A stretch of DNA of 64,000 nucleotides from Comamonadaceae bacterium (GTDB taxonomy: Bacteria; Pseudomonadota; Gammaproteobacteria; Burkholderiales; Burkholderiaceae_C): contig CANGME010000014.1 of assembly GCA_947455145.1 (NCBI GenBank), positions 1 to 64,000 of the forward strand. Reading direction: 5' to 3'. Shown in pieces: positions 52,857-63,815 of this stretch. Made by a program: the position numbers and the translations under genes. Each line of letters starts with the position of its first letter. Positions within the stretch are counted from its first letter, which is position 1. Under the pieces are notes generated by a model. That model was not told where the DNA came from. It was given only the letters and a program-made list of their open reading frames with translations, and did not search any database.

Positions 52857-53026
52857 CGGGAAAACTGGTGAGGGTTCTTGAAGAACGTGTCACGCCAGAG
52901 CGTTGAGATTTATTTTTGTTGAGGCTGTAAGAAAGTGCTGGTTGAGGCGACTCATACCTACAAGATGGCACGAACGATGTGCTGAATTGTGACGAACCTT
53001 TATCCAACTTTCTTCAGGAGATTGAA

Positions 53027-53335
53027 ATGACCTCAACAACGACACGCCTCGCATCCGCCGCCGCTTTGACACTCGCACTGGGCGCAGCGCTGACCCTGGC
53101 CAGCGCCCCGGTGTCTGCTCAAATGGCCGACAATGAAAAATGCTTTGGCGTCGCCCTCAAAGGCAAAAACGATTGCGCTGCCGGTGCAGGCACTACTTGC
53201 GCAGGCACGTCCAAAGTCGATCACCAAGGCAACGCCTGGAAGATGGTGCCCAAAGGCACGTGCGCGAAAACTGCTTCTCCCAAGTCACCCACCGGCATGG
53301 GTCAGCTCATGGCCTTCAAAGAAAAAATGGCTTGA
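53027..53335 (+). CDS. bufA1: bufferin precursor BufA1 (DUF2282)
   Basis: A 102-residue peptide with an N-terminal Sec signal (to about VSAQ, residue 32) and a DUF2282 core. Four cysteines lie at 39, 50, 58 and 79: [26 protein letters not shown] and VPKGTC, with the family block [11 protein letters not shown]. In bufferins an MNIO enzyme oxidises core cysteines to thiooxazole-type groups, and the exported product binds copper. ATG 53027 has CAGGAG six bases upstream; an earlier in-frame start lacks one. First gene of bufA1-bufB-bufC-bufD. Confidence 0.93.
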
Positions 53336-53364
53336 TCGTTTTCTGACATCAACCCGCACTTCAG

Positions 53365-54255
53365 ATGAGCCGCGCCGTGTCCCACTGGCCCAGCTCACCC
53401 ACACTGCCCACACGGGCCGGTGTGGGTCTGAAGTCTTGCCACTTTGTTGAAATTTTTGAGACAACACCCGACATCGGATTCTTCGAAATCCATGCCGAGA
53501 ACTACCTTGTAGACGGTGGCCCGTTCCATCACTACCTCACCCGCATTCGTGAGCACTACCCGCTGTCAATACACGGCGTGGCGCTCTCCATAGGTGCCGA
53601 TGCGCCGTTAGATATTGAGCACCTGCAGGCCTTAAAGCAACTGCTAGACCGCTACCAACCCCAATCCTTTTCTGAGCACCTGGCCTGGTCCACGCATGGC
53701 GACATTTTTTTAAATGACCTGCTGCCCTTGCCCTACACCGCGCTCACTTTGCAGCGCGTGTGTGAGCACATTGACCAAGTGCAGACCCACCTGCAACGCC
53801 GCATGCTGCTGGAGAACCCGGCCACCTACGTCGAGTTTGCCGAATCCGCCATGGACGAGGCTCACTTCATCAGCGAGGTGATTCGGCGCACCGGCTGCGG
53901 CCTGCTGCTGGACGTCAACAACATCCATGTCTCTTGCGCCAATCACGGGCGCGACCCGCACGCGTACCTGCGTGCTCTGCCGCTGGATCATGTGAGCGAG
54001 ATTCATCTGGCGGGCTTTGCCGAGCAGGCCGACAGCTTGGGCGCGCCTTTGCTCATTGACAGCCACGGCGCACCCGTGAGCGATGCCGTGTGGGATCTGT
54101 ACGCTGACGCATTGAGCCTCACCGGCCCTATCGCCACCTTGATCGAGAGGGACAACGACGTACCCGCCTTCGATGTTTTGCTGCAAGAAGCCGCCATCGC
54201 AGACCTGCAATTGCAGTCCATATCGGTAGCAACAACATCGGTGGGTGCAACATGA
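53365..54255 (+). CDS. bufB: MNIO-family RiPP-modifying enzyme BufB (DUF692)
   Basis: A 296-residue multinuclear non-haem iron oxidase. The TIM-barrel metal ligands of the family can be picked out: [62 protein letters not shown] and [10 protein letters not shown]. It would modify cysteines of BufA1. It starts 29 bases after bufA1 and overlaps bufC by ATGA. Confidence 0.93.
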
Positions 54256-55007
54256 GCCCGCAAGCTGTCTTCGCCAGCGCCTTGACCAACCCCGCCCAAG
54301 CCTGCCCACCGGGCCTGACGAGTTGGAACCACTCCGACGTGGCTCAGCGCTTTTCGGTCTATCGCAACAACGTCATGGCCTCTTTGGTGGACGCGCTGGC
54401 GGATACCTTCGCGGTAACGCAAGAACTCGTCGGCACTGAGTTTTTCCGCGCCATGGCCCAGGTGTTTGTGCAAAACCACCCACCGCATACACGGGTGCTG
54501 ACCTGGTACGGCCAGCACTTCCCCGACTTCATTGCAGGCTTCGCGCCTGCCGCCTCGCTGCCCTATTTGCCCGACGTGGCGCGGCTGGAGATGCTGCGTG
54601 TGCGCAGCTACCACGCCGCCGACGTCGTGCCCATAGATGCCGCAACCTTGACCCGCGCGCTGGCCGACCCCGCCGCACTGGATCGGCTCACCCTGGTACT
54701 GCACCCGAGTGTTCACGTCCTCGCATCGCCCTACGCTGTCTATTCCTTATGGGCTGCGCATCAAGGCGCCATGGCCATTGAGAGTGTGGACACGATGCAG
54801 GCCGAATCGGTCTTGATTTACCGCCACGGCCAAGACGTTCTTACACAAGCCATCGAGCCCGCGCAGCATTGTTTTGTGCAACAGCTTCAAGCGGGTCAAC
54901 CACTGGCGCAAGCGGCCGCTGAGGCTGCTGAGCTGGATCTTGATTTCGACTTTCCCGCTATTTTTTCCACACTAATCCGCCAGCAACTGATCACCCGAAT
55001 CGAATAA
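54252..55007 (+). CDS. bufC: BufC, DUF2063 partner of the MNIO enzyme
   Basis: A 251-residue protein of the DUF2063 (putative DNA-binding) family, in fact the RiPP-recognition partner that presents the precursor to the MNIO enzyme. The N-terminus has the typical [16 protein letters not shown] and [19 protein letters not shown], then [21 protein letters not shown]. It is translationally coupled to bufB. Confidence 0.9.
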
Positions 55008-55019
55008 GGAGAGACCCTC

Positions 55020-55520
55020 ATGACAACACCCACTGGCACCACTACCCTCGCGGGCCTGACCCGCAGCTTCATCAGGCTGTGCAGCTTTATCCCCGATTCA
55101 CTCATCGCCTTCATCGCCCGCTTCTCCATCGCCGCCGTGTTCTGGAAGTCTGGGCAAACCAAAGTTGAAGGCTTCGCCATCGACATCGTCGGTGGTGAAT
55201 TCAGTCTGGGCTGGCCGCGCTTGGCGGACGGCACGGTGGCGCTGTTCAAAGAGGAGTACCACCTGCCACTTATCGCCCCCGAGATCGCCGCGCCCATGGC
55301 TGCGTTTGCAGAGCACTTCTTCCCGGTGCTGATTTTGTTCGGCCTGGCCACGCGCTTTTCAGCCTTGGCCCTGTTGGGCATGACGGCGGTGATCCAACTG
55401 CTGGTGTACCCTGGCGCGTATCCCACGCATGGCGTGTGGGCGGCTGTGCTGCTGTACCTGGTGGCGCATGGGCCGGGGAAGGTTTCTATTGACCACTGGA
55501 TGGCCCGGCGAGGTGGGTGA
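55020..55520 (+). CDS. bufD: DoxX-family membrane protein BufD
   Basis: A 166-residue protein with four membrane segments, including LIAFIARFSIAAVFWKSGQT, FFPVLILFGLATRFSALALL and WAAVLLYLVAHGPG. Family DoxX. In bufferin operons it closes the set, with an unproved role. It starts 12 bases after bufC with AAGGAGAG in front. Confidence 0.9.
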   Translation: MTTPTGTTTLAGLTRSFIRLCSFIPDSLIAFIARFSIAAVFWKSGQTKVEGFAIDIVGGEFSLGWPRLADGTVALFKEEYHLPLIAPEIAAPMAAFAEHFFPVLILFGLATRFSALALLGMTAVIQLLVYPGAYPTHGVWAAVLLYLVAHGPGKVSIDHWMARRGG

Positions 55521-55557: not shown

Positions 55558-56757
55558 TCACAGGGCCCAAGCAGGTCTAATTTTTGCGAGTTGCGATTTG
55601 AGTTCTTGCGCCGCAGTGGCGTAGCCACCCTCGCTACCATCCACAAAGTGCATATGGTTGCCGTTGTAGGAGGAGACGATGCAGGTCAACAAGGCCTCAC
55701 GCGACCTGTGCATCCCATAAACGAGGTGCCCTTGCTGATGCATATCCTCCAAATAATTCTGCAACGACAGAAACTGCGCTTCACTGCCGTCGATCACCAT
55801 GCGTAACGACCCGTCAAATTTTCTAAAATCAGAGTTGTCGAGCATCTCTTTCACGTACTTGCTCCACCGCACCCTGTGGGTGTCTTTTTTAAGGGCAATC
55901 AGGTATTGGCCGATGAGGTTGAGGAAAAATAACCGCATCGCATAGACGATTTGACCACTGAGCAAGCGTTGATGAGACCGAACGCGCCATTCATGGCGAA
56001 GGTGCAGGGGATTGAAGGTAAGCCGCATGCTTTGATTTGACAAGGGGTGGTAATCCGAAGCCTCGCCGTAAATTCGACCTATAGCGTCAAGCACGTTGCG
56101 GTAGATGGCCTGCCCCGTCTTTTCCTGGTTCGACAGCGCGACCACCACCAAGGCCAATTTGTGATCCTGAAAACTGGGAACGTTGTGCCAACGGCACTCA
56201 AACCCTTCAAAACTACCTTCACACCGCCCCTGGTTTTCATGGACCCGCAACACACCTTGCGCCTGAGGCGATTTGATCAAGCGATCAGCCTCTTTCCATC
56301 CGCGACCTGAAAAGGCGGCCTGCACAACATGCGGCGACAAATGTACTTTGGCAATACGGGTCCAAAAGCCTCGCTCAAGTAGATGAATGCCCCGAACCAG
56401 ACCGACTCGCAGTGTCAATCCGAAGCTCTCACGTGCCATGCGCTGGGCCTGACGCAAGGCCGCCATGACGCCATCTCGCATTTCATCTGGAATGGCAAAT
56501 GTGGCCCCGTCCCCACCAAAAGCAAAGGGGATATCAATACGGCGATCTACGTTAAGAACTGCAGCGATGCAAGCAACGCCAACCGTGTTGACCTCTTTGT
56601 AGGCGCCCGCTTCAATCGCCTTTGTCGAATTGATGACGTCAGCAACAATGACCCACCAATCGGACGGCATCTGCAAATGATGATTGACGTCAACGACGTG
56701 TTCAAATTCTTCCAGTACGGCCAAGTCGCGATAAAAATAGCTTGAATTCATCGGCAT
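55558..56757 (-). CDS. DUF3095 protein, nucleotide cyclase-like
   Basis: A 399-residue soluble protein. The N-terminal half resembles a class III adenylate cyclase fold: WWVIVADVINSTKAIEAGAY (first metal-binding Asp) and DIPFAFGGDGATFAIP (second). These match the DUF3095 family, whose activity is untested to my knowledge. The C-terminal half is helical and rich in aromatic and basic residues. It follows the cupredoxin-like gene by 32 bases, and so is the last gene of the DUF3034 operon. Confidence 0.8.
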   Translation of the reverse strand: MPMNSSYFYRDLAVLEEFEHVVDVNHHLQMPSDWWVIVADVINSTKAIEAGAYKEVNTVGVACIAAVLNVDRRIDIPFAFGGDGATFAIPDEMRDGVMAALRQAQRMARESFGLTLRVGLVRGIHLLERGFWTRIAKVHLSPHVVQAAFSGRGWKEADRLIKSPQAQGVLRVHENQGRCEGSFEGFECRWHNVPSFQDHKLALVVVALSNQEKTGQAIYRNVLDAIGRIYGEASDYHPLSNQSMRLTFNPLHLRHEWRVRSHQRLLSGQIVYAMRLFFLNLIGQYLIALKKDTHRVRWSKYVKEMLDNSDFRKFDGSLRMVIDGSEAQFLSLQNYLEDMHQQGHLVYGMHRSREALLTCIVSSYNGNHMHFVDGSEGGYATAAQELKSQLAKIRPAWAL

Positions 56758-56789
56758 ATTTTTCGACTCGAAAGTGCATTTGTAGTGAC

Positions 56790-57434
56790 TTAAATCCGCC
56801 GACGTCGGGGCACAACGCTCAGTTTCACTGTCTGATTTAGGGCTGCATCGTTGACTTGCAGAACTTGTGGCGCTAGGTCAAGCAATTGGTCTGGGTGCCA
56901 CACACGCATCTTGACTGCCCCGCTGGGAACGTTGGCGAACTGTGCCAAGCCATCAGCGTTGGTTTTCAGTGTCCAGTCCGAGTCCGTGACAAAGATCGTG
57001 CCTCGCATAGACCCGTGAATATGGCAGCTTAGGAACGTCGCCCCAGGTTTGTCCATCGTAACGTCAGACGAACTGGCAGTTTTTCCATCTACTTTGCCTG
57101 CCAAACGCATTTCAAACCCATCAGTGGTGGGCGCAGCTACCAAGCCAGCCGTGCTGCCACGCAAATGGTGATCCCAGCGGTCTTGATTGGTAAAGCGTAC
57201 CGAAGTCCCAGTCGTCACGACGGTCACCTCAGGCACGAAACGCATTTTCTCTTGCACAACAGTGGCAGTGCGGGGCACCAGCGCTGGGTTGGGGGTGGCA
57301 GTACCTGGGTACATCACCACCACGGCATCGACCACAGGCTTCCCCTCTTTGTCAAGCACTAAAATTTGAACGTTCCCTGCGCTAGCGCTCGAATATAAAG
57401 CGTACGCAGCTATTAAAGCGATAGCATTTTTCAT
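56790..57434 (-). CDS. exported cupredoxin-like protein (methylamine-utilisation MauL-like)
   Basis: A 214-residue exported protein; signal peptide IALIAAYALYSSASAG. The first beta domain has VLDKEGKPVVDAVVVMYPGT, then TSVRFTNQDRWDHHLRG and FLSCHIHGSMRGTIFVTD. The spacing of His (DHH), Cys-His-x-His and Met (CHIHGSM) is that of a type I copper site in plastocyanin-like proteins. ATG 57434 is used. It overlaps no gene but begins only five bases after the haemoglobin stop, so it is co-transcribed with it. Confidence 0.82.
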   Translation of the reverse strand: MKNAIALIAAYALYSSASAGNVQILVLDKEGKPVVDAVVVMYPGTATPNPALVPRTATVVQEKMRFVPEVTVVTTGTSVRFTNQDRWDHHLRGSTAGLVAAPTTDGFEMRLAGKVDGKTASSSDVTMDKPGATFLSCHIHGSMRGTIFVTDSDWTLKTNADGLAQFANVPSGAVKMRVWHPDQLLDLAPQVLQVNDAALNQTVKLSVVPRRRRI

Positions 57435-57438
57435 GATG

Positions 57439-57882
57439 TTAATGGAGTGTGATGACATCTCGGTGCATGGGAGCGAGTAGCGCCAAGAGTCGATTTTGCT
57501 GGGTGAATGGAATGCCCCGTGCTTCCATGGCGGATTGTAGGTTCTCCACCAAGGCGTGAAAATCTCCTTTGTTGATGTCCATAGCCTCGTGGGCTGACTT
57601 CATGTCTGCGCCCTTGTAGATGCAAGGACCACCAGTGAGTTGACATACCTGATCGGTCAGTTGGGCTTTGAGCATCGGTGGTTTGGCGTCCTTGAAGTGG
57701 GTGCCAATTCGTGGGTCTTTGATGACACGGTTGACGAAATCATCCATCAGCAGGGTGATGCCATTTTTTTCACCGAATGCCTTGTACAGCGTATCGTTGG
57801 CGGGGGCAATGTTTTGTGCCGTGCCAGTGGTGCAAATTAAACTGGTGCAAGCCAGTAGCAGCAACATCAGTAATTTTTTCAT
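57439..57882 (-). CDS. exported group 1 truncated haemoglobin
   Basis: A 147-residue truncated haemoglobin. The globin part begins LYKAFGEKNGITLLMDDFVN and carries the proximal histidine His98 in MKSAHEAMDINKGDFHALV, after GPCIYKGADM. Unusually it has an N-terminal signal (LLMLLLLACTSLICTTGTAQ), so it should act outside the cytoplasm; LLAC could also be a lipobox with Cys12. Two more cysteines (80, 87) may form a disulphide. Role inferred: ligand or redox chemistry of NO, O2 or peroxide in the periplasm. Confidence 0.85.
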   Translation of the reverse strand: MKKLLMLLLLACTSLICTTGTAQNIAPANDTLYKAFGEKNGITLLMDDFVNRVIKDPRIGTHFKDAKPPMLKAQLTDQVCQLTGGPCIYKGADMKSAHEAMDINKGDFHALVENLQSAMEARGIPFTQQNRLLALLAPMHRDVITLH

Positions 57883-57918
57883 GATTGGTTCTCCAGAAAA
57901 GGGATAAAAATAAATGGC

Positions 57919-58854
57919 TTAAAACGCAAACTGTGCGGACAAATAGGTGCCGGTTTGGTTACGGTTTCCTGTAACACCAGGAACCACCTTACCCAAATCC
58001 ACATAAGCCAGCGTCAGAGAGACGTTTTTAGTGGGTGCCCAAGCTATAAAGATGTCCTTCCAGTCATCGGCATGCAGGGCATTACCCAAACCGGCAGCCG
58101 AACCAACGGACCCTAGGTTGTTGGTCATCACACGGTACTCGGCACCGATGGCCAACTTTTTATTGACCAAATAGGCGATGGCAACCTCAGGCACCACGCT
58201 ACGGCTGCTGGTGCCAGTGTTGCCCGCACCGAATCCTAAGAGGCCCCCTTGGTTGGCGTTGGTGGAACGCAGGGTGCCATTGATCAAAAAGCTCTTGTCC
58301 AAGAAAAGCTTGGTGGCGCTCACATAGAAATCAGTGCCATTGTTTTTCACACCCATAAAGTCAAACACGGACTGCAAAGACCCGGGGCGCACAGCCTTGT
58401 ACTCCAGACCGACAGAAATCTGCGGCATCCAACTGTCGCTGTCCAGCACCGCGTCACCCGCGACCTTGACCTTGACGCCCAGCACGTCCATCTGAATGTG
58501 TTGACCCGCTGAAATACCAAAAGGTGCAATACCGTTCAAGGCCACGGCAGGTGAGGCATCAAAATCTTGTTGAGCCACTGATAGCTCTACCCGGTCATTG
58601 ATACCCATAGCCAGGCCGTAGCTGTTCAGGCTGTAGTCTTGTGTGTTCGCACGTGATGCGTAGGCGCTCAGGCCCACTTCCCCTTCAGTGGCATTGCTAC
58701 CAATCACCGCCCAGGGGGATAGACCACCCCCGGCAGATCCTGCAATGGTGCTCACCCCGCCAGTGAGGAGCAGCTTGCCGGTATCGGCCTGGGCCAGGCT
58801 TGCACCCAAGGCCAAACCGATCAGCGCGGTGGTTTTTGAGAGTTTATGAATCAT
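57919..58854 (-). CDS. DUF3034 family outer-membrane-like protein
   Basis: A 311-residue protein with signal peptide ALIGLALGASLAQA. The mature part alternates hydrophobic and polar residues and ends in YLSAQFAF, with a terminal Phe, typical of outer-membrane beta barrels. GGVSTIAGSAGGGLSPWAVIG is the DUF3034 start. AAGGAG six bases before ATG 58854 decides the start; that site directly abuts an alternative ATG at 58860. It heads an operon with the haemoglobin, cupredoxin and DUF3095 genes, behind a sigma-factor-type promoter. Confidence 0.85.
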   Translation of the reverse strand: MIHKLSKTTALIGLALGASLAQADTGKLLLTGGVSTIAGSAGGGLSPWAVIGSNATEGEVGLSAYASRANTQDYSLNSYGLAMGINDRVELSVAQQDFDASPAVALNGIAPFGISAGQHIQMDVLGVKVKVAGDAVLDSDSWMPQISVGLEYKAVRPGSLQSVFDFMGVKNNGTDFYVSATKLFLDKSFLINGTLRSTNANQGGLLGFGAGNTGTSSRSVVPEVAIAYLVNKKLAIGAEYRVMTNNLGSVGSAAGLGNALHADDWKDIFIAWAPTKNVSLTLAYVDLGKVVPGVTGNRNQTGTYLSAQFAF

Positions 58855-58898
58855 GTGCATCTCCTTGAATGGATTTAAAACAGGTACTTCCACCACGC

Positions 58899-58926
58899 TA
58901 TACGCAGTGGACTGTGGGGTGGATTC
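58899..58926 (-). promoter_or_regulatory. ECF-type promoter of the DUF3034 operon
   Basis: On the minus strand: GAATCC (58921-58926), 16 bases, CGTATA (58899-58904), 45 bases before the start codon. The same pattern stands in front of the sigma factor gene and the DUF3455 operon. See those entries. Confidence 0.75.
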
Positions 58927-58951
58927 AACTTTTGCAAAGTTAAACAATAAT

Positions 58952-59341
58952 TCACAGCGTGGACAGGTAAGCGACCAGGTCCAGCCGGTCTTGAACCTCC
59001 TCCACTTGAAAGCCCATCTGCTGTCCGGGAATCAAAGCCTCGGGGTCTTTCAGCCAGGCCTGAAGCGTCTCGCGGCGCCACACCAAAGTGCTACCTCGCA
59101 ATGCATCCGAGTAGGCGAAGCCGGGCGTTGTACCAGCCCGCCGCCCCAGCACACCGCGGTGCATAGGCCCAACCCTGTTGGCGTCCACACTGTGGCAAGC
59201 AACGCAGCGTTCCCCATACAAGGCCTTGCCGCGCGCCACCGAACCTGTCTCAGCCAGCGCTGGCGATGATCCGAAAATCACTACCAACGCCCCGCTAAGG
59301 ACTAGGCCGTGTAAACGCTGCCCTTCATACGCGAACATCAC
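58952..59341 (-). CDS. class I c-type cytochrome
   Basis: A 129-residue exported cytochrome. Signal peptide to SSPALA (residue 30). Haem motif Cys46-V-A-Cys49-His50, and Met109 in GQQMGF is the likely second ligand. GPMHRGVLGRRAGT and FAYSDALRG resemble mitochondrial/cyt c2-type proteins. It overlaps the ferritin-like gene by four bases and ends the DUF3455 operon. Confidence 0.92.
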   Translation of the reverse strand: MMFAYEGQRLHGLVLSGALVVIFGSSPALAETGSVARGKALYGERCVACHSVDANRVGPMHRGVLGRRAGTTPGFAYSDALRGSTLVWRRETLQAWLKDPEALIPGQQMGFQVEEVQDRLDLVAYLSTL

Positions 59342-59910
59342 GCACCAAAACTCAGTGCACCAGCGGGTAACGGACGACCTAGCGCGTTGGTGAGGATGGA
59401 GAAGTGCATAGCCTCATCCGCCGCCAATCGAGCCGCCACTTTTGCCAGGTCTTTGCTACCAAAGGCTGGAATGACACCGATGTACGCATTGGTCGCCCCC
59501 ATCTCCAAGCGGGCCGCCAAGTCCAACACGTCCCCTTGGTTTTTCAGCATGTCAGCCTTCAGTGCCTTGGCATAGTCGCCGAGTGATTTTTCGGCGACAG
59601 GTGTGCCGCCCATTTTTTGAATGGTGGCGATCAGCGCGTCGCGGTGGCCCTTGTGGTGGCTCTGGAACAGCACCGCCACATCAAGCACGCCTTTTTGCAA
59701 CAGACCGCTGCCTGCACCCAACTGGTAGGCGTTGATGGCCTCGTGCTCCAGCCCCAGTGCCACGTTCAGAATGGACACGTCCTTGGACATGTCGCTCCCC
59801 ATGCCCTGCGCCAGTGACTCTTTACCCGCCAGCATGGCCACGGCCATGGCCGACAAAGTTCCTGATGTGCCCAAAAACGAACGACGATTGGTGATGATGG
59901 TATTGCTCAT
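59338..59910 (-). CDS. Tat-exported ferritin-like protein
   Basis: A 190-residue protein. The N-terminus has twin arginines, TNRRSFLGTSG, then a hydrophobic stretch to ESLAQG, a Tat signal. The rest is a four-helix bundle: LGLEHEAINAYQLG, FQSHHKGHRDALI, RLEMGATNAYIG and RLAADEAMHFSIL supply Glu and His for a di-iron site as in ferritin-like proteins. A folded metal-loaded protein would fit Tat export. ATG 59910 has GGAGA before it; the longer frame upstream has no support. Confidence 0.88.
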   Translation of the reverse strand: MSNTIITNRRSFLGTSGTLSAMAVAMLAGKESLAQGMGSDMSKDVSILNVALGLEHEAINAYQLGAGSGLLQKGVLDVAVLFQSHHKGHRDALIATIQKMGGTPVAEKSLGDYAKALKADMLKNQGDVLDLAARLEMGATNAYIGVIPAFGSKDLAKVAARLAADEAMHFSILTNALGRPLPAGALSFGA

Positions 59911-59968
59911 GGAAATCTCCTTGAAGTTAAAAAATTGATCCGAAAAGTTGATTGAGAACGATTTGGAA

Positions 59969-60520
59969 TCAAACGGCGCGCCAAAAGATGTAGTCAGCCT
60001 GGTACTGCACGGTTTGCTTCTGGCCCGTGTTGCCCGTGGCGCAAGCCATGGCCGGTGCCACGCCACCACGTGTGGCAACGCGCTGAATGAAACTCACGCC
60101 TTGCATGGCACCCATGCTCACTGCGGGGTTGGCTTTGACAAGCTGGAGTGGAATATTGCCGTCCCCACCGGGGGCCACGGCCAGTTGCGTGCCTGTCACT
60201 TTGGAGCCATCGTTTGCCTCCCAGCTGGCAGGAGGCCCGTAGTAACGGCCTACCGTCTTGCCACTGCGATCCGCCAGCGTCGCGCTAGGCCCCACGAACG
60301 CCCATTCAAACTGACCTGCAGTGTCTTTCTTGGCACGGCATTCATAGTTAATGCTGCCGATGCCCACGGTTTCCATGACCACGCTATGCCCCATCGGCAC
60401 CTTGACCGCCTCCGGCAAAGTGGCCTGACTGAACATAGTCCGCACGCCTGCCGAGCCGCCTGCACAGCCCGCCAAAATGGCCACACTGACAACACCTAAA
60501 ACCTTTGTGACTTGCTTCAT
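59969..60520 (-). CDS. DUF3455 lipoprotein
   Basis: A 183-residue protein with a lipoprotein signal: VVSVAILAGC gives lipobox LAGC. The mature part holds VETVG-like VMETVGIGSINYECRAK, FEWAFVGPSATLADRSG and GRYYGPPASWEANDGSKV, marks of DUF3455. Function unknown. ATG 60520 has AAGAGGTG in front. First gene of a three-gene operon with the ferritin-like protein and the cytochrome, behind an ECF-type promoter. Confidence 0.85.
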   Translation of the reverse strand: MKQVTKVLGVVSVAILAGCAGGSAGVRTMFSQATLPEAVKVPMGHSVVMETVGIGSINYECRAKKDTAGQFEWAFVGPSATLADRSGKTVGRYYGPPASWEANDGSKVTGTQLAVAPGGDGNIPLQLVKANPAVSMGAMQGVSFIQRVATRGGVAPAMACATGNTGQKQTVQYQADYIFWRAV

Positions 60521-60595
60521 GACACACCTCTTTTTTGATGACATGGGGTCGGGCAGCAACCCCTTTATGAATTGCCCGTCTTCTCTGCATACTTA

Positions 60596-60623
60596 AATAC
60601 GCAGCTACGGGTTAGATGGATTC
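60596..60623 (-). promoter_or_regulatory. ECF-type promoter of the DUF3455 operon
   Basis: On the minus strand: GAATCC (60618-60623), 16 bases, CGTATT (60596-60601), 75 bases before the DUF3455 start. The extended -35 TGAATCCA is shared with the two sister promoters. Confidence 0.75.
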
Positions 60624-60654
60624 AGATTTCATTCACTTATTTTTGCCCTGGCTT

Positions 60655-60682
60655 GAATCCACGTCACGGCTTTGCACGTACT
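60655..60682 (+). promoter_or_regulatory. ECF-type promoter of the sigma factor gene
   Basis: GAATCC (60655-60660), 16 bases, CGTACT (60677-60682), 25 bases before the ATG. Same -35, same spacing and same CGTA core as the promoters at 60596-60623 and 58899-58926, which points to autoregulation by the sigma factor it drives. Confidence 0.75.
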
Positions 60683-60707
60683 AGCTTCATGAGCCACAAT
60701 CTTCACC

Positions 60708-61283
60708 ATGAATCACATTGCAACTGATGACCAACTGCACACATTGATCAACCAGATAGGGTTGGGAGATGAAGCTGCCATGAAACGTCTGTATGACTTG
60801 ACCTCGCCCCGCCTGTACGGGCTGGCCTTGCGCGTGGTCAGAAAGCCCGAGTGGGCTGAAGACGTGCTGCAAGAGGCTTATCTGAGTGTCTGGCGCAGTG
60901 CGATAGATTTCCGTAATACCCTGAGTCCACCACTGGCCTGGATGGGTCTGATCGTGCGCAGCCGCGCGTTAGACCTATTGCGACGCAGGGCCACTGACCG
61001 CAGTCACCTAACGCAAGAGCTTGACGAGTTCCTGGAAGAGACCCTAGAGGGCCCATCACCCAACCCGCAAGATATTCAACAAAACAGCCAAGTGGCGAAG
61101 GCGTTGCACCAATGCTTGAGTGGGTTAGAGCACAAGCAGCGCGAAGTTGTGAGCCTGGCCTACCTGCGTGACTTGAGTCACAGCGAATTAGCCCAGCAAC
61201 TCAGTCTGCCGCTGGGAACTGTTAAAACTTGGATACGACGGGGGTTGGACCAGTTGCGCCATTGCATGACGCGATTTGCCTGA
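60708..61283 (+). CDS. ECF-family RNA polymerase sigma factor (SigK-like)
   Basis: A 191-residue sigma factor with only regions 2 and 4. Region 2: AAMKRLYDLTSPRLYGLALR, then AEDVLQEAYLSVWRSA and PLAWMGLIVRSRALDLLRRR. Region 4: LSGLEHKQREVVSLAYLRDL and the helix-turn-helix HSELAQQLSLPLGTVKTWIRRG. It resembles the SigK/RpoE-like ECF groups that pair with an RskA-type anti-sigma factor, encoded 14 bases downstream. It probably reads the three GAATCC-N16-CGTA promoters in this region. Confidence 0.93.
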   Translation: MNHIATDDQLHTLINQIGLGDEAAMKRLYDLTSPRLYGLALRVVRKPEWAEDVLQEAYLSVWRSAIDFRNTLSPPLAWMGLIVRSRALDLLRRRATDRSHLTQELDEFLEETLEGPSPNPQDIQQNSQVAKALHQCLSGLEHKQREVVSLAYLRDLSHSELAQQLSLPLGTVKTWIRRGLDQLRHCMTRFA

Positions 61284-61297
61284 GTCGAGACACCATC

Positions 61298-62041
61298 ATG
61301 AACTTGCAAAAATACCCTGACCGACTGGACACCCTGGCCGCTCACTATGCCTTGGGCAGTTTGCGTGGTGGCGCGCGCCGCCGCTTTGAGACGCTAGCCC
61401 GAAAGCTGCCCGCTGTGCGGCTGGCCGCTCACGATTGGCACGCACGTCTGGCCAGCATGACCGAGTTGCAGATGAGCGTGCCACCCAACCCTGTGGTCTG
61501 GACGCGCATTCAAAACCTGATTGCCGCCGAGCAGGAACAAAAAAACCTGACCCTTCAGCGTGCACGCCCGACACTTGCACCCACCGGCTGGTGGCGCAAC
61601 CTGATGCTGTGGCGTGGTGCTTCACTCATTGGCACGGCGGTCAGCGTTGTGGCTGTGTTGGTCGGACTGAACCTGAACGAACAATTGCAAACCCTGCCGC
61701 GCGTTTCGTATGTTGCGGTACTGGCCGATGATCAATCAGCTGCATCCATGCTGGTGACCTTTGATCCGCTGCACCGCAAACTCACGCTGCAACGCGTAGG
61801 TGGTTACCAAGAAGCCAGCGATAAGTCGCTTCAATTGTGGGCATTGCCACCCGGCAAAGGTCCGCAATCTCTAGGCGTGTTGAGCCAAGAAAAACTACTG
61901 CGTCTGACGGTGGCCGAGTCGCAAGTGAACGCGGTGCCCACCTTGGCCATTAGCCTGGAGCCCAAAGGCGGTGTGCCCAGCGAACGCGGCCCAACGGGTC
62001 CTGTCATATTCAAAGGGACTTTGATTCAGAAGTCGCTCTAA
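61298..62041 (+). CDS. RskA-like membrane anti-sigma factor
   Basis: A 247-residue protein. The N-terminal cytoplasmic part (DTLAAHYALGSLRGGARRRFE) is the sigma-binding anti-sigma domain; no zinc HxxxCxxC motif is present. One membrane helix at ~108-127 (GASLIGTAVSVVAVLVGLNL) is followed by an RskA C-terminal domain (FDPLHRKLTLQRVGGY, SLQLWALPPGKG, SLEPKGG). ATG 61298 gives this layout. The last 114 codons are repeated at 63473-63815. Confidence 0.9.
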   Translation: MNLQKYPDRLDTLAAHYALGSLRGGARRRFETLARKLPAVRLAAHDWHARLASMTELQMSVPPNPVVWTRIQNLIAAEQEQKNLTLQRARPTLAPTGWWRNLMLWRGASLIGTAVSVVAVLVGLNLNEQLQTLPRVSYVAVLADDQSAASMLVTFDPLHRKLTLQRVGGYQEASDKSLQLWALPPGKGPQSLGVLSQEKLLRLTVAESQVNAVPTLAISLEPKGGVPSERGPTGPVIFKGTLIQKSL

Positions 62042-62096: not shown

Positions 62097-63467
62097 ATGT
62101 ACCTTTGCCACCCCGCAACGTTCAGCCCGATTCGGACTGACCTCAAGCTGTCTGAACTGATCGGTTCATTGAGTTATGCACTCGATATCACTGAAGGGCA
62201 ACCTCCGGGGCACTGCATCCGTTGCTGCTGGATCGGTATGCACATCGGTCGTGAGATCGGCCTGAATGAACACCAGCTATGGGAGCTTTACTACACACTG
62301 CTGCTTAAAGACCTAGGCTGTAGCAGTAATGCGGCGCGCATCTGCGAGCTCTACCTCACAGATGACCTGCAATTCAAACGCGACTTTAAACGGGTGGGTG
62401 ACAATCTGTCTCAGGTGGTGCGCTTTGTGCTCCAACATACCGGCCTCAAAGCGGGCTTGGCTGAGCGCTTCAACAGCACACTCCACATCTTCCGAGAAGG
62501 CAGTGAGATTGCGCAAGAATTGATTGAAACGCGCTGCCACCGGGGTGCTGAAATTGCCCGCTTGTTGCGGTTTTCAGAAGGTATTGCCGAAGGCATTTAC
62601 AGTCTTGACGAGCACTGGAACGGCAATGGTAAACCTGCTGGCTTGTCTGGTGAGGCTATATCAGTGTACTCCCGCATTGCATTGCTTTCCCAAGTGATTG
62701 ATGTTTTCCGGACTGATGGTTCCAGACAAGCGGCGCTAGATGAGGTGCGATCTCGTTCTGGCCAATGGTTTGATCCCTCACATGTCAGCGCATTCGAGCG
62801 TATCGCGCAATCGGAGCGTTTTTGGGACACGCTGGGATCGTCTGAGGTCGATCAAGCCGTCTCAGATCTGGAGCCTGGTCAATTTGAGGTTCAATTGGAT
62901 GAAGACTATCTTGACGATATTTCTGCTGCGTTTGCGAAAGTGATTGACTCGAAAAGTCCTTATACCAAAGGACACAGTGAGCGAGTGGCGCTCTACACAG
63001 ATTTGATTGCAGAAACATTGGGACTTGATCCACACCGTCGTCGCTGGTTAAAACGAGGTGCGCTGCTGCACGACGTGGGTAAGCTGGGCGTGAGCAATAC
63101 CGTACTTGATAAAGCGGGTCCACTTGACGCTGATGAGTGGAAGGCAGTGCAACAACATGCGGCACTGACAGAATCCATCCTGTCTCGCATTGAGGCTTTC
63201 AGTGAGTTGGCTCAGGTGGCCGGTGCGCACCATGAACGATTGGATGGTGGCGGCTATCCTAAAGGACTCAAAGCAGATGAACTTTGCATAGAAACTCGCA
63301 TCATCACCACCGCCGACATCTTTGATGCCATTACCGCAGATCGCCCTTACCGAGCGGCCATACCAATTCCAAAAGCGCTTGACATGATGACCAACATGGT
63401 GGGAACCGCGATTGATCCCGTTTGCCTTGATGCACTTAAAAAAGCCGTGGCAAGCTTGAACTCATGA
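62097..63467 (+). CDS. tandem HD-domain protein with C-terminal HD-GYP
   Basis: A 456-residue protein. The C-terminal half is a full HD-GYP domain: HDVGKLG (325-331) and HHERLDGGGYP (378-388), expected to hydrolyse cyclic di-GMP. The N-terminal half is a second, degenerate copy: the HD pair is KD in LLLKDLGC, and the GYP region reads DEHWNGNGKPAGL. There is no membrane or receiver domain. It lies between the anti-sigma gene and the broken copy of it, with 55 bases before and no promoter of the GAATCC type. Confidence 0.9.
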   Translation: MYLCHPATFSPIRTDLKLSELIGSLSYALDITEGQPPGHCIRCCWIGMHIGREIGLNEHQLWELYYTLLLKDLGCSSNAARICELYLTDDLQFKRDFKRVGDNLSQVVRFVLQHTGLKAGLAERFNSTLHIFREGSEIAQELIETRCHRGAEIARLLRFSEGIAEGIYSLDEHWNGNGKPAGLSGEAISVYSRIALLSQVIDVFRTDGSRQAALDEVRSRSGQWFDPSHVSAFERIAQSERFWDTLGSSEVDQAVSDLEPGQFEVQLDEDYLDDISAAFAKVIDSKSPYTKGHSERVALYTDLIAETLGLDPHRRRWLKRGALLHDVGKLGVSNTVLDKAGPLDADEWKAVQQHAALTESILSRIEAFSELAQVAGAHHERLDGGGYPKGLKADELCIETRIITTADIFDAITADRPYRAAIPIPKALDMMTNMVGTAIDPVCLDALKKAVASLNS

Positions 63468-63472
63468 TTCAC

Positions 63473-63815
63473 GCGCGTGTCGTACTTTGCGGTACTGGCC
63501 GATGACCAATCTGCTGCGTCCATGCTGGTGACTTTTGACCCCGTGCACCGCAAACCCACGCTGCAAGGCGTAGGTGGTTACCAAGAGGCCAGCGTCAAGT
63601 CGCTACAAATGTGGGCACTGTCAGCCGGCAAAGGACAGCAGTCTCTGGGCGTGTTGAGCCAAGAAAAACTACTGCGCTTAACTGTTGCCAAATCGCAGGT
63701 TAACACTGTGCCCATCTTGGCTATTAGCCTGGAGCCCAAAGGCGGTGTGCCCAGCGAACGCGGCCCAACCGGGCCGGTGCTGTTTAAGGGTGCGTTGATT
63801 CAGAAATCAATCTAA
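63473..63815 (+). pseudogene. 5'-truncated second copy of the anti-sigma factor gene
   Basis: Collinear without any insertion or deletion with 61699-62041, ending at the same stop codon. The 112-codon open frame (from GTG 63477) encodes only the periplasmic C-terminal RskA domain; about 96 of 112 residues equal those of the intact protein. The sigma-binding part and membrane helix are missing, no ribosome site precedes it and no signal peptide exists. The frame is still open, so it is recent or conserved. Confidence 0.8.

Follow-up and report, generated by a model that had tools for sequence, protein, structure and literature searches.

A SigK–RskA-type sigma factor locus in a Comamonadaceae bacterium and its probable role against envelope oxidants

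Introduction

SigK and its anti-sigma factor RskA represent groups ECF18 and ECF19 of the extracytoplasmic function (ECF) sigma factors. Of the ECF18 sigma factors, 94% have the pair of cysteines that SigK carries (positions 133 and 183 in M. tuberculosis), as do 56% of the ECF19 members and <2% of those in other groups; an mpt83-sigK-rskA cassette is reported in Yersinia, and the signal of the system is still unknown according to the same authors (PMC7509140). The mycobacterial SigK regulon includes fasciclin (PMC10540498). Here we describe a locus in which a sigma/anti-sigma gene pair of this type adjoins two operons of mostly exported proteins, among them the domain families DUF3455 and DUF3034. 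It lies in a 64,000-nucleotide stretch of a Comamonadaceae bacterium genome (contig CANGME010000014.1, positions 1 to 64,000), hereafter the window.

The other close comparison is RpoE–ChrR (ECF11). PSPTO_1043 of Pseudomonas syringae, a sigma factor of RpoE/ChrR type, has the consensus TGATCC-N16-CGTA, and three of the four promoters tested were induced by singlet oxygen (1O2) and tert-butyl hydroperoxide (tBOOH) (PMC5507510). Fasciclin also belongs to the 1O2 regulon of R. sphaeroides, and the Rhodobacter capsulatus pair RCAP_rcc00699/00698, which is induced by singlet oxygen and is closer to SigK/RskA than to RpoE–ChrR, neighbours genes for the glutathione peroxidase BsaA1, the photolyase CryB and two hypothetical proteins (PMC7074977). 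We liken this pair to ours by description, not by sequence, and in the sections of that paper drawn on here its neighbours are not named as the DUF genes of our locus.

The SigK–RskA signal would become testable outside mycobacteria with such a pair from Comamonadaceae-type bacteria, whose promoter is sharp, whose regulon is small and closed and whose targets point to oxidants. The locus also places DUF3455, DUF3034 and the exported type of truncated haemoglobin in a functional context.

The locus, its switch and its promoters

The locus has the following parts:

60708..61283, plus strand: SigK-like ECF sigma factor, 191 aa, with two SigK-type cysteines, C136 and C186
61301..62041, plus strand: RskA-type anti-sigma factor with an RskA_C domain and, by eye, one hydrophobic stretch; frame read from 61301, the start being approximate
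60654..60680, plus strand: ECF-type promoter TGAATCC-N16-CGTA of the sigma gene, whose ATG is 27 nt downstream; counterparts precede the sigma genes of relatives
60598..60624, minus strand: ECF-type promoter of the DUF3455 operon; it and the sigma promoter point away from each other, with 29 nt between their -35 boxes
59969..60520, minus strand: DUF3455 lipoprotein with a LAGC lipobox (Pfam 122 bits)
59338..59910, minus strand: exported Ferritin_2 protein with a twin-arginine signal (Pfam 92 bits)
58952..59341, minus strand: exported class I cytochrome c with a CVACH motif (Cytochrom_C 39 bits); its GTG start overlaps the Ferritin_2 stop
58901..58927, minus strand: ECF-type promoter of the DUF3034 operon; the same motif lies upstream of DUF3034 in relatives
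57919..58854, minus strand: DUF3034 protein, a predicted porin-like outer-membrane beta-barrel (Pfam 295 bits)
57439..57882, minus strand: exported group 1 truncated haemoglobin (trHb; Bac_globin 43 bits)
56790..57434, minus strand: exported cupredoxin-like protein with CxxHxxM (Copper-bind borderline, 20.7 bits against a cut-off of 21.2)
55558..56757, minus strand: DUF3095 protein, nucleotide-cyclase-like and probably cytoplasmic (Pfam 405 bits)

A sequence-only reading of the window had proposed seven genes in two operons behind matching promoters, and it holds in these respects: each of the seven, like the sigma gene and the anti-sigma gene, has an open frame where expected, and TGAATCC-N16-CGTA is present before both runs. 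A third copy, overlooked in that reading, precedes the sigma gene, which is apparently autoregulated. The sigma and anti-sigma genes are divergent from the seven minus-strand genes. The first run reads DUF3455, 58 nt, Ferritin_2, a 4-nt overlap, cytochrome c; the second reads DUF3034, 36 nt, trHb, 4 nt, cupredoxin, 32 nt, DUF3095; and 97 nt with a promoter inside separate the two. All Pfam matches of the locus proteins exceed curated cut-offs except that of the cupredoxin-like gene; sigma-70 regions 2 and 4 score ~50 bits each, and RskA_C (PF10099) scores 77.4 bits against 29.4. The same reading placed iron, haem and copper sites outside the cytoplasm; DUF3095 has no visible signal peptide and is probably cytoplasmic.

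Judged by sequence, the pair is of the SigK–RskA kind, because the anti-sigma factor has an RskA_C domain, the best match of the sigma factor in a PDB sequence search is SigK 4nqw (E 2.9e-23; next RpoE 2q1z, E 9e-17), and its two cysteines align with those of 4nqw and are at least 90% conserved in 28 sequences, its own included. The NCBIfam SigK model came second (133 bits, below its cut-off of 226) to a generic sigma model (137 bits). The anti-sigma factor had no match in a PDB sequence search up to E 1. RskA_C is the sole anti-sigma domain found; a DUF1109-type anti-sigma factor (EcfF–OsrA type) was not found, and ChrR had no match in this genome at E 0.001. The locus was first taken for a system of no described composition, which is not so for the switch itself. 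The switch family is known; for the output set we found no description: none of the literature matches listed describes this set in its title or the start of its abstract, and searches for DUF4331 with a sigma factor, and for singlet oxygen with ECF, fasciclin and glutathione peroxidase (GPx), found none. In the literature searched, papers naming DUF3455 are few, a study of Delftia being by title the only one that concerns a bacterium, and DUF3034 is named only in work that by title is on other subjects.

The promoter is sharply confined. Scanning the window with the N15–17 pattern gave four matches, where 0.05 were expected from shuffles; the fourth, at 219, has a spacing of 17 and lies inside a frame that by eye resembles a chemotaxis receptor. 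The same pattern has five exact matches in the whole 3.35-Mb genome, three of them at the locus, and exact N16 spacing occurs at those three sites only; the other two are within or close to unrelated genes. Relaxing the N16 pattern to one mismatch (purine after TCC) gives 14 genome matches, the three at the locus among them, against 12 in a reversed control, so there is no sign of further members, and on this count the regulon appears confined to this locus.

The likeness to SigK–RskA thus comprises a sigma factor with two conserved cysteines, an adjoining RskA_C anti-sigma factor, apparent autoregulation and a small regulon. Fasciclin, the mpt83 product of the mycobacterial and Yersinia cassette, also stands under the motif, but in relatives only; it has no match in this genome. 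It is a frequent companion of the sigma/anti-sigma pair rather than a part that defines it. The targets here are instead DUF3455, Ferritin_2, cytochrome c, DUF3034, globin, cupredoxin and DUF3095. Compared with that of RpoE–ChrR, the promoter has the same -10 element and spacer and one inserted base in the -35 element (TGA-A-TCC); TGATCC-N15–17-CGTA does not occur in the window. The two systems overlap in target types among relatives (fasciclin, GAF/GGDEF, esterase-like hydrolase), whereas the anti-sigma factor here is of RskA type, not ChrR. Neither cfaS nor phrA, both core to RpoE, recurs among the first genes of operons in relatives, a comparison that did not extend to later operon genes.

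Conservation across relatives

A scan with DUF3455 yielded 575 relatives, and the best 80 of the 575 loci by DUF3455 similarity were kept; nearly all are named as Burkholderiales or genera thereof, and many end at contig ends. Homologues were found for the sigma factor in 56, the anti-sigma factor in 53, Ferritin_2 in 20, DUF3034 in 16, trHb in 14, cupredoxin in 11 and cytochrome c in 5. We then counted loci with the motif (looser pattern, N15–17 and CGT[ACT]) within 4 kb of DUF3455. It was present in 21/26 loci with a close sigma factor (at least 50% identity), in 0/30 with a distant one and in 15/24 with none in the flank, and hence follows the close sigma type. For 12 of the last 15 it lies within 200 bp upstream of DUF3455, and for two it lies 3′ of that gene.

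The distant type is an ECF/anti-sigma pair of 30–40% identity that adjoins DUF3455 in 30/80 loci, none with the TGAATCC motif. From these loci, DUF3455 seems to serve two sigma lineages.

Co-occurrence was counted in 150 genomes of the same family, with p-values that ignore relatedness between genomes. Of these genomes, 52 have DUF3034, 68 have DUF3455 and 37 have the two together (Fisher p 5e-6). At a threshold of E 1e-30 the anti-sigma factor is matched in 37 of the 150, this genome included; DUF3455 occurs in 34 of these 37 and in 34 of the other 113 (p 2e-11), and DUF3034 in 22 of the 37 (p 6e-4). The motif has 176 matches in the 150 genomes against 11 in a reversed control; the 37 genomes with the anti-sigma factor account for 125 of these and 3 of the control matches, the remaining 113 genomes for 51 and 8.

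As far as sequence goes, the idea of one regulon under one sigma factor stands: the shared promoter is conserved and tracks the sigma/anti-sigma type, and neither of the refuting conditions set beforehand, orthologues that never co-occur and independent regulation of the two operons, is borne out. The seven genes are not an inseparable module. Six Comamonas loci have sigma factor, anti-sigma factor and DUF3455 only, with Ferritin_2 added in four of the six, and DUF3034–trHb pairs also occur with no such sigma factor in the flank.

Targets in relatives and the proposed function

From the 176 matches, 138 distinct ones were examined (this genome's own sites not among them), each target family being named from one scanned representative. 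Recurring first-gene groups took in 93; those with a name are the sigma factor (19), DUF3034 (11), DUF3455 (8), DUF4331 and alpha/beta hydrolase (7 each), DUF1365 (6), GPx (5) and Ferritin_2 (4), then MsrP, BufA2-like, fasciclin, a second ferritin-like family and a DUF4148-like small protein (three each), and transglutaminase, GAF-GGDEF and HupE (two each). The NCBIfam scores of the representatives are 480 bits for MsrP (cut-off 207) and 78 for BufA2 (cut-off 60), and the GPx is exported, with a signal peptide by eye. One match upstream of a flavin adenine dinucleotide (FAD) oxidoreductase starts 52 bases before the frame. In one relative, three near-identical SigK-type promoters stand before three paralogous small exported proteins, DUF4148-like with scores below the DUF4148 cut-off. 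DUF1365 is weakened as a target: its six matches lie 190–217 bases before the gene, where the coding sequence of the preceding gene apparently ends.

The exported GPx and MsrP behind the motif argue for oxidants at the envelope. We consider it probable that the locus is a SigK–RskA-type ECF regulon directed against envelope oxidants, singlet oxygen or lipid peroxides being the likely ones. At rest the membrane-spanning RskA-like protein would keep the sigma factor bound. The sigma factor would be released or activated, through RskA and perhaps its own two redox cysteines, by an oxidant that acts at the inner membrane or beyond it; singlet oxygen, or the peroxides of lipids and proteins arising from it, is the likeliest. 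The freed factor would read TGAATCC-N16-CGTA at the three promoters, that of its own gene serving as amplification and the others driving DUF3455–Ferritin_2–cytochrome c and DUF3034–trHb–cupredoxin–DUF3095. The exported di-metal Ferritin_2 and the haem proteins would provide peroxide- or oxygen-handling redox centres, cytochrome c and cupredoxin would carry electrons, the DUF3034 barrel would form a pore in the outer membrane, and the DUF3455 lipoprotein may bind oxidised hydrophobic products. The sequence-only reading had suggested a coordinated answer to oxidant, nitric oxide (NO) or metal stress. Its oxidant part fits the MsrP and exported GPx of relatives, while NO and copper are not specifically supported.

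Structure and residues bear on two of these proteins. The DUF3455 model (mean predicted local distance difference test, pLDDT, 88.6) is a confidently predicted 8-stranded barrel, possibly of allene-oxide-cyclase/dirigent type. Its structural neighbours are PloI4, the best (VIA Z 10.3, 118 residues, root-mean-square deviation 3.8), dirigent proteins and allene oxide cyclases; those of PloI4 type are cyclase/Diels-Alderase barrels. The best Foldseek hit has E 4e-3, and a PDB sequence search up to E 1 found no match. A predicted likeness of fold does not show function. In the Ferritin_2 protein, E55, H86, H89, E136, E166 and H169 are invariant in 22 sequences, consistent with a di-metal site, and the twin-arginine (TAT) model scores 16.6 bits, just under its cut-off of 16.7. 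The alignments took in 35 of 47 extracted relatives, 40 of 92, and 20 of 21 plus one further.

The Ferritin_2 profile also matched the tardigrade protein RvY_06210 (8kce, E 3.5e-4), which we first took for the tardigrade manganese peroxidase. We dropped this link, for the paper on that enzyme, in the part consulted, gives it as g12777, a beta-sandwich protein, without naming RvY_06210.

In Delftia on soybean roots, two DUF3455 genes and a fasciclin gene are strongly induced and a gene with a ferritin-like domain is also up (PMC7725335).

Several observations weigh against an oxidant regulon as we describe it. Among the loci with a close sigma factor, 5/26 had no motif found, and six genomes below the anti-sigma threshold have at least three motifs. 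As many as 45 of the 138 matches fall in no recurring family, some inside genes, and the six DUF1365 matches, five of which share one small reading frame, may reflect conservation of coding sequence. ChrR is present in 1/37 anti-sigma genomes against 12/113 others, an exclusivity that is not significant (p 0.19). This genome has no fasciclin match and no match to the exported GPx query (uninformative by itself), nor extra motif sites, so the argument from repair enzymes rests on relatives only. An antioxidant role is proven for none of the seven genes, and BufA2 and cupredoxin are also compatible with copper.

A bolder version is possible, though on the whole doubtful. SigK–RskA and RpoE–ChrR would share nearly one promoter (TGA[A]TCC-N16-CGTA) and overlapping targets, and SigK–RskA would be a second, widespread route for sensing singlet oxygen or lipid peroxides. 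Here it would drive an unrecognised set for detoxifying the envelope, in which a barrel lipoprotein of allene-oxide-cyclase type would deal with oxidised lipids, Ferritin_2 would act as an exported di-metal enzyme, and porin, globin and cupredoxin would make up an electron path.

The DUF3034–globin pair as an older cassette

The DUF3034 model (pLDDT 76, predicted TM score 0.77) has 12 strands; Foldseek returned OmpG (E 2.4e-9) and VhGalP (TM(target) 0.68), and a PDB sequence search up to E 1 gave no match. The globin gene adjoins DUF3034 in all 30 family loci, taken from the 52 DUF3034-matched genomes, and in all 26 further loci of a phylum sample (56/56). Where DUF3455 loci include DUF3034, trHb is present in 14/16, the other two ending at a contig end beside DUF3034. 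Since the pairing is so constant, also where this sigma factor is missing from the flank, DUF3034 and the exported globin form an older cassette, recruited into a SigK-type regulon in some lineages. A Caballeronia/Novosphingobium plasmid cassette has the DUF3034, trHb and cupredoxin-like genes together as here but, unlike here, no sigma factor within 6-kb flanks; at the position of our DUF3095, Caballeronia has a dCache-HAMP-GGDEF-EAL protein.

Matches to GGDEF/EAL lie in the DUF3034–trHb flank in 21/26 phylum-sample loci, and the single one scanned carries a dCache_3–HAMP sensor. These loci are mostly in other families and classes and resemble a porin–globin–cyclic di-GMP cassette.

Past the anti-sigma gene lies one more gene:

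62097..63467, plus strand: HD-GYP-type phosphodiesterase, starting 55 nt past the anti-sigma gene

It is possibly co-transcribed with the anti-sigma gene and does not belong to the core, being present in 1/80 of the relatives' loci. Together with DUF3095, whose cyclase likeness we presume from a GGDG stretch, it hints at second-messenger control near the locus.

The operon could accordingly be read as mainly an O2- or NO-related signalling cassette that feeds cyclic-nucleotide enzymes and is under the sigma factor only incidentally. The constant globin pairing, the GGDEF/EAL flanks and the presence of DUF3095 and HD-GYP here speak for this reading, which we nevertheless judge unlikely. The motif lies 124–204 bp upstream of the DUF3034 profile match in at least 13/52 DUF3034 genomes, this one included, so that part of the family retains sigma control. 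The globin itself keeps the proximal His and has a conserved Cys pair, and Val stands in place of the Tyr of the aligned solved globin at a position that we take to be B10 (the distal Tyr site); an NO dioxygenase role like that of HbN is doubtful for that reason. A homologue of the cupredoxin-like protein is annotated ‘methylamine utilization protein’.

Copper, reactive chlorine and neighbouring sequences

On the other side of DUF3095, at 52979-55520 on the plus strand and directed toward it, lies a copper-bufferin operon of BufA1/DUF2282, BufB maturase (above its NCBIfam cut-off), BufC-like and DoxX/HvfX-like genes. We dropped it as a candidate part of the regulon, having found no motif within two mismatches upstream of bufA on its strand.

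With this BufA1-BufB-BufC-DoxX operon next door as a partner, the same SigK–RskA regulon might instead answer copper or general envelope metal stress, its cupredoxin, Ferritin_2 and haem proteins buffering or oxidising metals. The CxxHxxM of the cupredoxin-like protein would suit such a role, as would the exact motif before the BufA2-like genes of relatives (3/138 examined). We think it quite improbable, given that the adjacent bufA is without the motif though relatives’ BufA2-type genes carry it, and that MsrP, GPx and fasciclin are targets of oxidant type.

A response to reactive chlorine or methionine oxidation, functionally like SigF–MsrP systems, is more improbable still. It would draw on MsrP behind the motif in 3/138 examined matches and on the Caballeronia plasmid pSBC2-3, where a 46%-identical sigma gene lies near genes annotated as molybdopterin oxidoreductase, cytochrome b and MXKDX-repeat protein. 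Few of the targets are MsrP, however, and none was seen in the window stretches read, and the anti-sigma factor has RskA_C, not the DUF1109 type described for OsrA (PMC3420878). The idea of chance neighbours with look-alike promoters, for which the two exact matches of other spacing in or by unrelated genes might be cited, is contradicted by the conservation statistics and the recurring target families of relatives and is hardly credible.

As an observation on its own, the neighbourhood of the pSBC2-3 sigma gene resembles methionine-based oxidant scavenging.

Just past the HD-GYP gene, at 63393-63815 on the plus strand, the C-terminal domain of the anti-sigma factor is partly repeated. The copy matches residues 108-246 at 74% identity, has one stop in the aligned stretch and is a remnant of local duplication.

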